Source: Flavobacteriales bacterium
Lineage (GTDB): Bacteria > Bacteroidota > Bacteroidia > Flavobacteriales_C > GCA-002722245
Assembly (NCBI GenBank): GCA_023251075.1
Contig: JAHEZM010000012.1
Span: forward strand, 1 to 64,000
DNA: 64,000 bases
Direction: 5' to 3'
Part shown: piece by piece, positions 27,969 to 53,217 of the stretch
How positions within the stretch are numbered: position 1 is the first letter of the stretch
How the letters are laid out: every line of letters begins with the position of its first letter
Translations under genes and position numbers: made by a program
The notes under the pieces: generated by a model
Seen by the model: the letters and a program-made list of their open reading frames with translations, nothing else
The model's database searches: none
Told to the model about the DNA's origin: nothing

Positions 27969-28082
27969 GATTCTTTGCAAGCTTAAAAATAGTTGATTTA
28001 TTTTAAAATTGGGTGTATTTTTGTTTCCAGCGGAAAACTACTTTGATAAGATAATTGGGATTTAATTTAAAAGATTATTAAA

Positions 28083-48550: not shown

Positions 48551-48559
48551 TACAAAAAG

Positions 48560-48588
48560 AAAAAGTTGGACGGGCATCCAACTTTTTC
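48560..48588 (+). terminator. Rho-independent terminator after the DUF4846 gene
   Basis: An 11-bp perfect stem (48560-48570, AAAAAGTTGGA, with 48577-48587) around a six-base loop; A and T tracts on both sides make it usable in both directions. Confidence 0.85.
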
Positions 48589-48618
48589 TAACCTAACCTA
48601 ACTAAACTTAACTAAACT
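48589..48618. repeat. Six tandem pentamers TAACC/TAACT/AAACT
   Basis: Directly behind the terminator the sequence reads TAACC TAACC TAACT AAACT TAACT AAACT, six five-base units with at most two changes from each other. It marks the start of the 327-base gap before the response regulator gene; no coding potential. Function unknown; it could be a slippage-prone tract. Confidence 0.7.
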
Positions 48619-48698
48619 ATTTACAGTTTTTAAAACTGTATGGGAGTATATTTTAGTATTACAAATATACAACATTATTTTACAAAGTCAAGTTTTCA

Positions 48699-48761
48699 TC
48701 GAAAAAAAAGTTTAATTCGTCGAAAAATAAACTAAAATTGTCGAAATAATTAAGATATTTT
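48699..48761 (+). promoter_or_regulatory. Three tandem 21-bp units upstream of the response regulator
   Basis: TCGAAA occurs at 48699, 48720 and 48741, exactly 21 bases apart, each followed by an A/T-rich stretch (consensus TCGAAAAAtAAacTaaAattg). Two helical turns per unit puts the TCGAAA cores on one face of the DNA, as for an array of protein-binding sites. The third copy is the most diverged. The array ends 117 bases before the response regulator ATG. I infer an operator array, possibly for the regulator itself. Confidence 0.55.
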
Positions 48762-48877: not shown

Positions 48878-49534
48878 ATGAACAGATTAAAAGTACTATT
48901 GGTTGATGATCATCGCTTGATCAGAAAAGCAATTTCCACGCTTCTTAATGGTGAACCTGACATTCAGGTAATTGCCGAAGCCAGCAACAAAGAAGAATGC
49001 TTTCATTTGGCAGAAGTAGCTCTTCCTGATATTGTTTTAATGGATATCTCTTTAGAAGATGCCGACGGTATTCATTTAACTAAAGAATTGATAGAGAAAT
49101 ACCCTAATTTGAAGGTTATTATTCTTTCTATGCATTTACAAGAATCTTATATCAAACAAGCCATTAAAGCAGGTGCTAAAGGATATATTCTTAAAAATTC
49201 TCCTCACGAAGACTTAATTAAAGCAGTAATGGAAGTTGCCAATGGCGGACAATATTTTGCTCAGGAGGTTTCGAAAATGATGGCTCAAAATTATTTATTG
49301 TCTGAAAAAACAACAGATTCTCGTTACCATAAAGATGAAATTCTTACGAAACGTGAATTAGAAATTGTTAAGTTGGTTGCTGAAGGATTGAACAATCAAA
49401 AAATTGCCGATCAATTGTGCATCAGCCACAGAACGGTTGATACGCATAGAACGAACATTATGCAAAAGGTTAAAGTGAAAAATGTTGCTGAGTTGGTTCG
49501 TTATGCGATTAAAAATAGATTGGTAGAAATTTAA
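48878..49534 (+). CDS. LuxR/NarL-type response regulator
   Basis: A 218-residue two-component regulator. The receiver domain (1-120) has the acidic pocket DD at 10-11, the phospho-acceptor D56 in IVLMDIS, and the conserved Lys in YILKNSPHEDL (about 105). The C-terminal helix-turn-helix of the LuxR class (about 150-215) reads LTKRELEIVKLVAEGL, then ISHRTVDTHRTNIMQKV. It has no histidine kinase next to it. It is preceded by a repeat-rich control region and faces a large sensor-type adenylate cyclase across a shared terminator. Target genes unknown; autoregulation is plausible. Confidence 0.94.
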   Translation: MNRLKVLLVDDHRLIRKAISTLLNGEPDIQVIAEASNKEECFHLAEVALPDIVLMDISLEDADGIHLTKELIEKYPNLKVIILSMHLQESYIKQAIKAGAKGYILKNSPHEDLIKAVMEVANGGQYFAQEVSKMMAQNYLLSEKTTDSRYHKDEILTKRELEIVKLVAEGLNNQKIADQLCISHRTVDTHRTNIMQKVKVKNVAELVRYAIKNRLVEI

Positions 49535-49555: not shown

Positions 49556-49594
49556 AAAGCCAAAAAGTTTACGCTTTTTGGCTTTCTTTTTTTA
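49556..49594 (+). terminator. Bidirectional terminator between response regulator and cyclase genes
   Basis: A 12-bp perfect stem (AAAGCCAAAAAG at 49556-49567 with CTTTTTGGCTTT at 49574-49585) closes TTTACG and is followed by T-rich sequence. The last codons of the cyclase gene lie within this hairpin, so its coding end doubles as part of the terminator. Confidence 0.85.
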
Positions 49595-52500
49595 CTACAT
49601 TTTGGTAAAGTAATTCATTGGCAATTTTTCCATGCTCATCTTTAGAGTATTGTGGTAAGAGTCGTTCTACAAAGTACATACTCATTTCCCCTTTGTTTTT
49701 AACATGAATATCACCGCGCGCATTGCAAATAAAATATTCTTTTATTTCAAGGTAAGTGCTTTCTGAAATATTTAATTTCCCCGGAATACTATTTGATTCC
49801 ATTCTGCTGGCTACATTTACAGAATCACCCCAAATATCATAGGCGAATTTTTTCTTGCCTACCACTCCTGCAATGAGTGGCCCACTGTGAATGCCCACAC
49901 GTACTTCCCAGGAATGTCCGATTTTTGTTTCGAATGAAGCAATGAAATCGATAAAGGCTAAACCTGCTAAAACACAATCTACTGCATGTGTTTTATTGCT
50001 TACAGGTATTCCTCCTGCACACATATAAGCATCTCCAATGGTTTTTATTTTTTCGAGATTATGTTGATCGGTAATAGCATCAAATTCAATAAAGATATTG
50101 TTCAATTCACTAACCAGCACATCTGGCGACAATGTTTCTGAAAGACTTGTAAATCCTTTAAAATCAGTAAACATTATACTTGCATCTTCATAAAGTTTTG
50201 TTTTTGCTGTTCCCGAATCTTTCAGCTCAGTGGCTATCTCTTCCGGAAGAATATTTAGTAACAGCTCTTCAGATTTTTTCTTTTCTATTTCAAGATCTTT
50301 TGTTCGCGACTGAACAATGTCTTCCAATTGTAATTTTTCTTTGGTTAACCTCTTAATTCTCCATTTAAACCCTATCCAAAGAACTAAACCAATACTTATT
50401 ATTAGCAGGATTCTGAACCACCATGTTTCCCAAAAAGGTGGAATGATAGTGATGTTGATGCTCAAAGGTTTTTTACTCCATTTACCACCATTCAGTTTGG
50501 TGTAAACTTCAAGTGTGTATTCACCAGGTTCAATGTTAGAGTATGTAACTTTGTTTAATGAGCCACTAGGAGATAATTCATTATCATGACCTTTAAGTTG
50601 AAATCTATATTCTACAGCTGTTGGGTTAATTAATGCATTTGCTTTAAACTCAAAAGTTAAATGGTTGATGTTATAGGGTAATATTAGTTTATTGGGTGTA
50701 TGATAATATCCTGTCAATGAATCACAATAAGGTCTCCAATCGAAATCTGAATAATTAAATTTTATATTGGTGAAATCTAGTTTAGGAATAAAATTTTCTG
50801 GAGTTTGCGAGGGATTCAAAGTTTTAATTTTACAAGCACCATTTATTGTCCCTAGCCATAAAGATTCTTTGCTATCAATACACCAGGCATTCCTGTTACA
50901 TTGTATCCCTTCGAATCCTTCTTTAATACCATAAGAGAATATTTCGAAAGTATTCATTGATATTTTTTTCACGTCTTTATCAGTAGCTAACCATATCGCA
51001 TTGTCGTTTGCATAAATTGAATTGATTACAATGTTTTTAAGACTTTTGTGACTAGGTAGGGTATAAAATTTCCCTTTGTGCATGAAATAAACTCCGTCGC
51101 CTTGAGTACCAAACCAAATTCTTTGCTTGTCAATTTCAGAATAGCAGCTTATTACATGAAGCAAAGATCCTTCAGTGCATTTAGAAAATACATTTATTTT
51201 TAATTTCTCTTTCGATGCATTTGCAGTATTCGTGATTTGGATCACTCCCTTGTTCGATGCTGCCCAAATATTTCCTTGGTCATCTTCACAAATACTATAA
51301 ACACTACAATTTTCGATGTTTTCTGGATTTTCATAATCATAAAATAGTGCAGTTTTTTTATTATCGAAACCAATACTTTTTATTCCATGATTATTTGTTC
51401 CCACCCAAATAATTCCTTTTTTATCCACATAAAAACAATTTACTTCATTGGCAGTAATGTTATTGAAGTTTACAAGCCTATTGTTTTCATAGCGGTAAAT
51501 TCCATTTCCTTCAGTTCCAATCCATAGTGTACCTGAAGAATCACTACACAGTGCTGTTATTGTTGTTGAATTTAGTACCTCAGAATTGTTTAGTGATGAT
51601 ATTTTTTTTCTTTTTCGAATGACTACTCCATTGGATTGTGTTCCCAGTACAACACTTGAATCGGGAAGTACACAAATTGCGGTGATAATAGGATCGTTTA
51701 ATCCGCTATTGCTGTTTATAATAGAAAAGGTTTCGCCAAGATATTTATTTATTCCTCCAAATTTTGTGGCAAACCACAGGGCACCCGATTTATCTTGTTC
51801 TATACCTCTAATTTGATTGTTTGATAGTCCGTTTTCTTTCGATATCAAGGTAATTCTTACTTCGTCTTCTTCAAAATTATTGTGTCGTATTCGGTAAGCA
51901 CCTTTGTTGGTAGCTATCCATAAATTATGGGTGAAATCTTGAAATAAACAATTAATAGTTTTTGTGTGGATCATAGAGGTGTCGATCACCATTTTAAATG
52001 AATTTTCTTTTTGTATCCAAACGCCATTATTTGTTCCTACCCATATTTTATTTTGATAATCTTTTAAAAGCGAATTTATTTTTAAGTCTTTCAATATCTC
52101 TATACCAATTATTTTTTTAGTTTTCGAATGGATATAATTCAATCCATTTTGTGTAGCTATCCAAATGTTACCCTCTTTATCTTTAGTAAGATCAAAAATT
52201 GCATCGCTAAATAATCCATCTTTCCGAAAGAAGCTTTGTATTGATTTTTCATGCAGGATATTCAAGCCGTTGTATTTGGTACCTATATAGATATTGCCCA
52301 AATTATCTTCACAAATAGAAGTGATACAATTATCACTTAATCCATTGCTGATATCAAAAACTTTAATTATTTCATTTTCTATATAACAAGCTCCTCCGTT
52401 TTCAGTACCTATCCATATTTTACCTTTACTATCTTCAAAAAGGGTAGTGATGTTTTCATCGGGTAGTCCGTTACTTTGGTGATAATATTTGAATTGGGTA

Positions 52501-52691
52501 CCATCATAGAGGTTCAATCCATTGTTATCGGTACCAATCCATAAGTGTCCATTTTTATCTTCTATAATTGTTTTAACAGAGGCTTGAGATAAGCCTTCTC
52601 CCACAGAAATATTTTCGAAATGATATTGCTGACTTCGCATGGAAACAGCTAGAAAAAATAAAAAACATATGAGTGTTGTACTCTTTTTCAT
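49569..52691 (-). CDS. Propeller-sensor class III adenylate cyclase
   Basis: A 1040-residue transmembrane enzyme; the ATG at 52691 is chosen because it opens a signal peptide, 13 codons inside the longest frame. The extracytoplasmic part (to about 640) is made of repeated two-component-regulator propeller units (for example GNIYIGTKYNGLNIL, GTLWIGTEGNGIYRY), then a Y_Y_Y domain (to about 735), one membrane helix (about 740-760), a short coiled coil, and a class III cyclase domain (about 835-1005). Metal ligands D843 and D887, adenine-selecting K883 and D952, and N959/R963 are present, so ATP to cAMP is expected. The histidine kinase that normally follows such propellers is replaced by the cyclase. 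Confidence 0.9.
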   Translation of the reverse strand: MKKSTTLICFLFFLAVSMRSQQYHFENISVGEGLSQASVKTIIEDKNGHLWIGTDNNGLNLYDGTQFKYYHQSNGLPDENITTLFEDSKGKIWIGTENGGACYIENEIIKVFDISNGLSDNCITSICEDNLGNIYIGTKYNGLNILHEKSIQSFFRKDGLFSDAIFDLTKDKEGNIWIATQNGLNYIHSKTKKIIGIEILKDLKINSLLKDYQNKIWVGTNNGVWIQKENSFKMVIDTSMIHTKTINCLFQDFTHNLWIATNKGAYRIRHNNFEEDEVRITLISKENGLSNNQIRGIEQDKSGALWFATKFGGINKYLGETFSIINSNSGLNDPIITAICVLPDSSVVLGTQSNGVVIRKRKKISSLNNSEVLNSTTITALCSDSSGTLWIGTEGNGIYRYENNRLVNFNNITANEVNCFYVDKKGIIWVGTNNHGIKSIGFDNKKTALFYDYENPENIENCSVYSICEDDQGNIWAASNKGVIQITNTANASKEKLKINVFSKCTEGSLLHVISCYSEIDKQRIWFGTQGDGVYFMHKGKFYTLPSHKSLKNIVINSIYANDNAIWLATDKDVKKISMNTFEIFSYGIKEGFEGIQCNRNAWCIDSKESLWLGTINGACKIKTLNPSQTPENFIPKLDFTNIKFNYSDFDWRPYCDSLTGYYHTPNKLILPYNINHLTFEFKANALINPTAVEYRFQLKGHDNELSPSGSLNKVTYSNIEPGEYTLEVYTKLNGGKWSKKPLSINITIIPPFWETWWFRILLIISIGLVLWIGFKWRIKRLTKEKLQLEDIVQSRTKDLEIEKKKSEELLLNILPEEIATELKDSGTAKTKLYEDASIMFTDFKGFTSLSETLSPDVLVSELNNIFIEFDAITDQHNLEKIKTIGDAYMCAGGIPVSNKTHAVDCVLAGLAFIDFIASFETKIGHSWEVRVGIHSGPLIAGVVGKKKFAYDIWGDSVNVASRMESNSIPGKLNISESTYLEIKEYFICNARGDIHVKNKGEMSMYFVERLLPQYSKDEHGKIANELLYQNVVKKESQKA

Positions 52692-52813
52692 TCGAATTAT
52701 TGGCAAGCTTGATACGCTATTCCAATTCATAAGTTTTAATTCAGTTAAATAATCCTGTTTTGTTTAGGTATTTACTGAGATTAAGAAAAACGCTAAGTAA
52801 AGTAGGGCATATT

Positions 52814-53019: not shown

Positions 53020-53102
53020 GCCTTGGTGGTGGAATGGTAGACACGCAGGACTTAAAATCCTGTGGCAGCAATGCCGTAAGGGTTCAAGTCCCTTCCGAGG
53101 TA
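53020..53102 (+). tRNA. tRNA-Leu (anticodon TAA)
   Basis: Class II tRNA of 83 nt: acceptor GCCTTGG with CCGAGGT, D arm around GGTGGAATGGTAGACAC, anticodon stem CAGGA/TCCTG with loop CTTAAAA (anticodon TAA), an extended variable arm GGCAGCAATGCC, and T arm GGGTTCAAGTCCC. Discriminator is A. The next bases are CTA, so the CCA end is not encoded here, unlike the neighbouring tRNA-Gly. Confidence 0.95.
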
Positions 53103-53104
53103 CT

Positions 53105-53217
53105 AAAAATCAGAGTGAGAGTGAGACACGAGAGTGGCCACGAGCACTCTGATTTTTCTCAAAGCTCGCTCTCACACTCACTCTGTTTTTCTCCAAACTC
53201 ACTCCCACACTCACTCT
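53105..53217 (+). terminator. Terminator and related repeats after tRNA-Leu
   Basis: AAAAATCAGAGTG (53105-53117) pairs perfectly over 13 bp with CACTCTGATTTTT (53145-53157); inside lies the palindrome GTGGCCAC (53134-53141). Two more CACACTCACTCT copies follow (ending 53184 and 53217), each before a T/C-rich run, and can pair with the same left arm. It looks like a terminator whose right arm was copied twice. The rest of the gap up to 53302 is AT-rich and I see nothing else in it. Confidence 0.65.

Follow-up and report, generated by a model that had tools for sequence, protein, structure and literature searches.

A conserved 21-bp tandem array as the probable operator of a small RNA promoter in a Flavobacteriales genus

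Three tandem 21-bp units in a Flavobacteriales contig (JAHEZM010000012.1; the window analyzed here is its positions 1 to 64,000 on the forward strand) constitute a real, conserved, and functional-looking operator. It probably serves the promoter of a predicted small RNA (sRNA) gene on the minus strand, in which case the original prediction, which had placed it with the LuxR-type regulator next door, named the wrong owner. In the model that we favor with reasonable though limited confidence, the array would be a promoter-proximal tandem operator of this sRNA gene, bound by a LytTR-family response regulator and activating, and the sRNA would act after transcription. At the sequence level, the model is built on the conserved array and its constant register to the sRNA promoter, on the conservation of the sRNA itself, on the corresponding register in BTnc049 promoters, and on 21-bp repeats that stand in this register at LytTR operons too.

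The TCGAAA copies lie at 48699-48704, 48720-48725, and 48741-48746, an exact period of 21 bp, and the TRF call on the array covered 48695-48746 with a period of 21 and a score of 62. The pattern TCGAAA-N15-TCGAAA matched twice in the window and never in 100 dinucleotide shuffles; across the whole 3.28-Mb genome it matched three times, two of them in this array, and the reversed-pattern control gave no match. With 175 TCGA sites in the window, the array was the sole equally spaced TCGA triplet at spacings of 5-60 bp, where 0.0013 triplets were expected by chance at 21 bp and 0.07 at any spacing. Direct positions, shuffles, and TRF thus confirmed the three tandem 21-bp TCGAAA units. All three are A/T-rich and phased. 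Read on the minus strand, the TCGA cores of the promoter-proximal (48699-48719), middle (48720-48740), and distal (48741-48761) units, at 48699-48702, 48720-48723, and 48741-48744, precede the −7 box of the sRNA promoter by 33, 54, and 75 nt, respectively; the proximal core also precedes the TTG of the −33 element by 11 bp. A resemblance to the Spo0A-like TGTCGAA was considered and dropped, as Spo0A is, to our knowledge, not expected in Bacteroidota.

The surroundings of the array had been called otherwise featureless, which proved incorrect: an sRNA gene that is conserved together with its promoter occupies 48554-48691 on the minus strand, immediately to the left. The gene (48657-48554, minus strand) is unannotated, approximately 100 nt long (104-nt predicted RNA), and apparently noncoding, with stops breaking all three frames. 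With a covariance model, R1, each of the five genus genomes (G000-G004) gave a match, at 114-127 bits, as against 0/5 genomes of the sister genus, and no sRNA was found at the sister-genus regulator loci. The promoter consists of a −33-type element, TTGAC (48687-48691, minus strand), conserved in the alignment of orthologues, and a −7 element, TATATTTG (48662-48669, minus strand), of the sigma-ABfr type TAnnTTTG; the pair fits the published sigma-ABfr consensus TTTG/TAnnTTTG (PMC7366714). From these features, we infer that an sRNA is transcribed from this locus. Its predicted fold, all on the minus strand, starts with a 5' hairpin, UACAGUUUU...AAAACUGUA (48622-48640), whose arms read ACAGT...ACTGT in four of the five orthologues. 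A nearly invariant, UUAG-rich linker follows (48590-48621), largely unpaired in the predicted centroid fold and bearing several UUAG/GUUAG copies, and the RNA ends in an intrinsic terminator hairpin with a U tract (48554-48588), in which two pairs are compensatory. A second, shorter sRNA of like build (hairpin, GTTTAGTTAGGTTAG, terminator) was observed beside a tRNA gene in two genomes (G000:C31:49101-49189 and G001:C157:1653-1746).

The array is conserved in four related genomes besides the window genome. Over the five genomes, the two promoter-proximal core windows, 21 bp apart, have a pairwise identity of 100%, whereas the spacers have 47%; the TCGA core of the middle unit is invariant, and that of the distal unit is retained in three genomes. 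Counted upstream from the sRNA −7 box, the TCGA positions are 33/54/75 in the window and 32/53, 34/55/76, 34/55/76, and 34/55 in the others, and in every genome TTG follows 10-11 bp after the start of the core. The distance from the regulator start codon to the nearest TCGA, by contrast, drifts (−137, −147, −123, −129, and −149), and no TAnnTTTG box lies between the array and the regulator gene in any of the five genomes. As to gene content, the sequence to the left of the array is kept in the four further genomes, and the gene upstream varies. Conservation of the 21-bp spacing at orthologous promoters had been named as a test, and it is kept at four orthologous loci; a phased array of putative binding sites is well supported. 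At the second, tRNA-adjacent sRNA loci (G000:C31 and G001:C157), the corresponding sequence reads TCGAYGAA-N3-TTGAC, which places its core at 34 nt relative to the −7 box.

Similar features were found in the BTnc049 family (Rfam RF04179), for whose function no literature was found. The window sRNA aligned over the full model length but scored 27.1 bits, where the gathering score is 81.9, and is therefore not a BTnc049 member by the Rfam criterion. The two nevertheless share the hairpin-linker-terminator architecture, a linker with AUAGUUUAGUUAAGUYUAGUU, a sigma-ABfr promoter, and T[AC]GA at 34/55; they differ in the sequences of the terminator and the 5' hairpin, and the window gene belongs to a Flavobacteriales genus and is read divergently from a LuxR regulator gene. 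A 17-mer of the linker, TTTAGTTAAGTYTAGTT, occurred in 3 of 396 Bacteroidota genomes, namely in this sRNA and in two BTnc049 genes. In a set of 25 BTnc049 promoters from Bacteroidaceae-like genomes (family f32), T[AC]GA was counted at each of 71 positions; the counts were highest at exactly 34 and 55, with five occurrences each against a mean of 0.34, and these came from four genera. In the BTnc049 promoters of genus g190, the core is GTAGA/GCAGA and the 21-bp period is retained. We take the window sRNA and its promoter to be, together, distant homologues of the BTnc049 RNA and promoter.

The gene to which the array had been assigned encodes an orphan LuxR/NarL-type response regulator (48878-49534, plus strand) with Response_reg and GerE domains, and the reported lack of an adjacent kinase was correct. 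This divergent regulator might bind the array and activate the sRNA gene, perhaps also its own, as GacA does on RsmY/RsmZ. In the GacA-RsmY/RsmZ and CsrB/CsrA systems, a response-regulator operator precedes an sRNA in which short single-stranded motifs recur, and the window locus would be alike in both respects; its repeated motif, however, is UUAG and not the GGA of CsrB-type sponges, and there was no CsrA-type evidence. In the window regulator, the receiver residues are intact and the HTH is conserved. Its divergent synteny with the sRNA holds in 5/5 genomes of the genus, and the second sRNA locus of G001, too, has a LuxR regulator-kinase pair as its neighbor, whereas that of G000 has no LuxR regulator nearby. 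Ownership by this regulator does not agree with the register described above, which follows the sRNA promoter and not the regulator gene, nor with the missing TAnnTTTG box toward that gene. Moreover, its sister-genus orthologues have an identical recognition helix, yet both sRNA and array are absent there, and in the Bacteroidaceae carriers searched, where BTnc049 promoters show the 34/55 geometry, no orthologue was found (best identity 25-32%); neither G697 nor G744, both with TCGA at 34 in their BTnc049 promoters, gave a match at E 1e-15. Given this lack together with the LytTR geometry and matrix match presented below, an operator for the LuxR regulator is not favored and appears rather unlikely, but it is a live rival that may still act here because the two genes are divergent in 5/5 genomes.

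Some further observations concern the neighborhood. The gene next to the regulator encodes a Reg_prop/Y_Y_Y/guanylate-cyclase protein; in the window, this gene (49569-52730, minus strand) is convergent with the regulator gene, and its large product combines Reg_prop propellers, a Y_Y_Y domain, and a guanylate/adenylate cyclase domain. A 33-bp tandem repeat of 2.2 copies (53145-53217) follows just after a tRNA-Leu gene (53020-53103). One database entry, CAMBXP010000084.1, contains the genus sRNA locus and the regulator at 84% identity, and its title, Chryseobacterium gleum, looks doubtful.

The geometry of the array points to a different family of regulators. In the literature, LytTR sites consist of direct repeats of 9 bp separated by 12 bp, and most of them lie about 10 bp upstream of −35; such operators, of which those of the HdrR/BrsR operons are examples, are often autoregulatory (PMC6193735). 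The array has the same type of geometry, namely direct repeats with a 21-bp period placed a few bp upstream of a −33 element. It differs from those operators in having two to three repeats instead of two, in its target, an sRNA gene, to which binding is predicted from sequence, and in its site, TTTCGACRAA, which departs from the published consensus of the ACCxCTTAT type (PMC6193735, Tables 2 and 3). The site does resemble those at LytTR operons of its own genus, all members of which have LytTR homologues (Pfam included). In the promoters of one type of LytS-LytTR operon (G000, G002, G004, and G005) and in that of a Bacteroidaceae paralogue, 21 bp was the best or tied-best repeat offset among offsets of 11-40 (shuffle p of 0.0025-0.035 each), with units such as TTCGTAGG, TTGGTAGA, and TTCGTCGG at about 54/75 or 33/54 from the −7 element. 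In 5/5 genomes, a second group of LytTR operons shows the 21-bp period as well, here with TCACC-type repeats at 37/58. These promoters were read individually; an automatic search for 21-bp repeats at 17 LytTR loci had miscalled the operon starts and was therefore not informative. The LytS-LytTR operon promoter of G004 (L183:2832 / G004:C15:7391-7431) has sites in all three registers, 33/54/75, which suggests that this operon may be autoregulated.

We then consider a position matrix built solely from eight LytTR-operon sites. These sites were aligned on a T[AC]GR core picked after the array had been seen, so the test is not fully blind, and the genomes, being related, are not independent. In the window promoter, the top three matrix positions were 54, 33, and 75, and in the G003 promoter, they were 34, 55, and 76. 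The best match fell in register in six of seven genus sRNA promoters and 13 of 25 BTnc049 promoters, compared with shuffled-promoter means of 1.4 and 4.9, respectively, and the observed counts were never reached in 1000 shuffles; column-shuffled matrices gave p values of 0.008 for the genus and 0.01 for BTnc049. In the other 12 BTnc049 promoters, several of them beside LytTR genes, the best match was out of register. In several Bacteroidaceae, the BTnc049 gene comes immediately after a LytS-LytTR operon. As a separate observation, three BTnc049 promoters (L051, L054, and L055) have a strong LytTR-operon-like site at 63-66 and not at 34/55, about one helical turn beyond 55; in L051, this is TTCGTCGATAAAA, at 18.6 bits.

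Taken with the geometry, these matches make a response regulator of the LytTR family, with its gene elsewhere in the genome, the probable binder of the array. In G001, which has the sRNAs and the array, no close homologue of the G000:C11-type LytTR was found, so another LytTR paralogue would be needed there. Some other regulator conserved across Bacteroidia, neither the LuxR neighbor nor a LytTR protein, might instead bind the tandem sites of the sRNA family. The sites do travel with this family through differing gene neighborhoods, and their core drifts between TCGA and TAGA, both of which would suit such a protein; the in-register prediction from LytTR operon promoters argues against it, and we regard it as unlikely.

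The repeats might also be an intrinsic UP-like or curved element, with A/T tracts every two turns, that boosts strong stable-RNA promoters without a dedicated regulator. Consistent with this, the units are A/T-rich and phased, and TCGA occurs beside a T-tract, near the proximal position, at one rRNA-like and two tRNA promoters: at one tRNA-Glu promoter in G000 and at one rRNA-like and one tRNA promoter in G002. A single TCGA core is therefore not exclusive to sRNAs. Conservation, however, sits in the TCGA cores and not in the A/T spacers, and tRNA promoters are in register no more than chance, with one TCGA among about 18 in the genome and best matrix matches in register at 4/18. On these counts, a generic stable-RNA promoter element was rejected, and the intrinsic-element explanation is very improbable.

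Under the preferred LytTR reading, two or three protein subunits would occupy the direct repeats, two turns apart and on the same helical face. From beside the −33 element, they would bring RNA polymerase to the TTGAC/TATATTTG promoter; we infer activation of the sRNA promoter rather than repression. The binder would most likely be the LytTR-family regulator from elsewhere in the genome and not the LuxR neighbor. The sRNA would then act post-transcriptionally through its nearly invariant UUAG-rich linker, which may either pair with mRNAs or occupy an RNA-binding protein of the RRM type. A genome-wide search for antisense targets of the linker with at most three mismatches over 25 nt returned none except the sRNA gene itself, and the genome encodes three RRM proteins. 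Protein titration or short-seed pairing with mRNAs would be the candidate modes of action. According to the available part of a study in Bacteroides (PMC11697453), the RRM protein RbpB binds sRNAs and is the partner of GibS and FopS, of which FopS has sigma-ABfr promoters. That part describes GibS/FopS as having, like the window sRNA, a single-stranded 5' region and a terminator, and does not describe an upstream array for them.

How sRNAs are themselves controlled is poorly known in Bacteroidota. The BTnc049-like family, itself uncharacterized, is here extended to a Flavobacteriales genus and tied to one precise operator geometry, which is testable in Bacteroides, and the locus offers a handle on the targets of LytTR regulators, of which these genomes have several copies. 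A tandem operator of the LytTR-like type in front of a BTnc049-like sRNA gene would be a variant of a known operator type. Much more speculatively, and with considerable doubt, a Bacteroidota-wide circuit can be imagined, in which LytTR response regulators drive, through 21-bp tandem operators of two or three units, BTnc049-type sRNAs whose UUAG repeats sequester an RRM protein, like a CsrB-type sponge assembled from unrelated parts.

Two minor observations were made. Of the 72 TAnnTTTG boxes of the window, the one at 28016 (plus strand) is the only other with two in-register matrix matches (54 and 75), both weak and probably due to chance. The weak class-wide matches of model R1 were mostly other terminators or 3' ends after GTTAG repeats and were not kept as clear sRNA relatives. 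Such Bacteroidota terminators preceded by GTTAG/TTTAG repeats (L035, L042, L043, L044, and L047) include some apparently short free-standing RNAs and some mRNA 3' ends, and the repeats may be a common RNA-protein signal.
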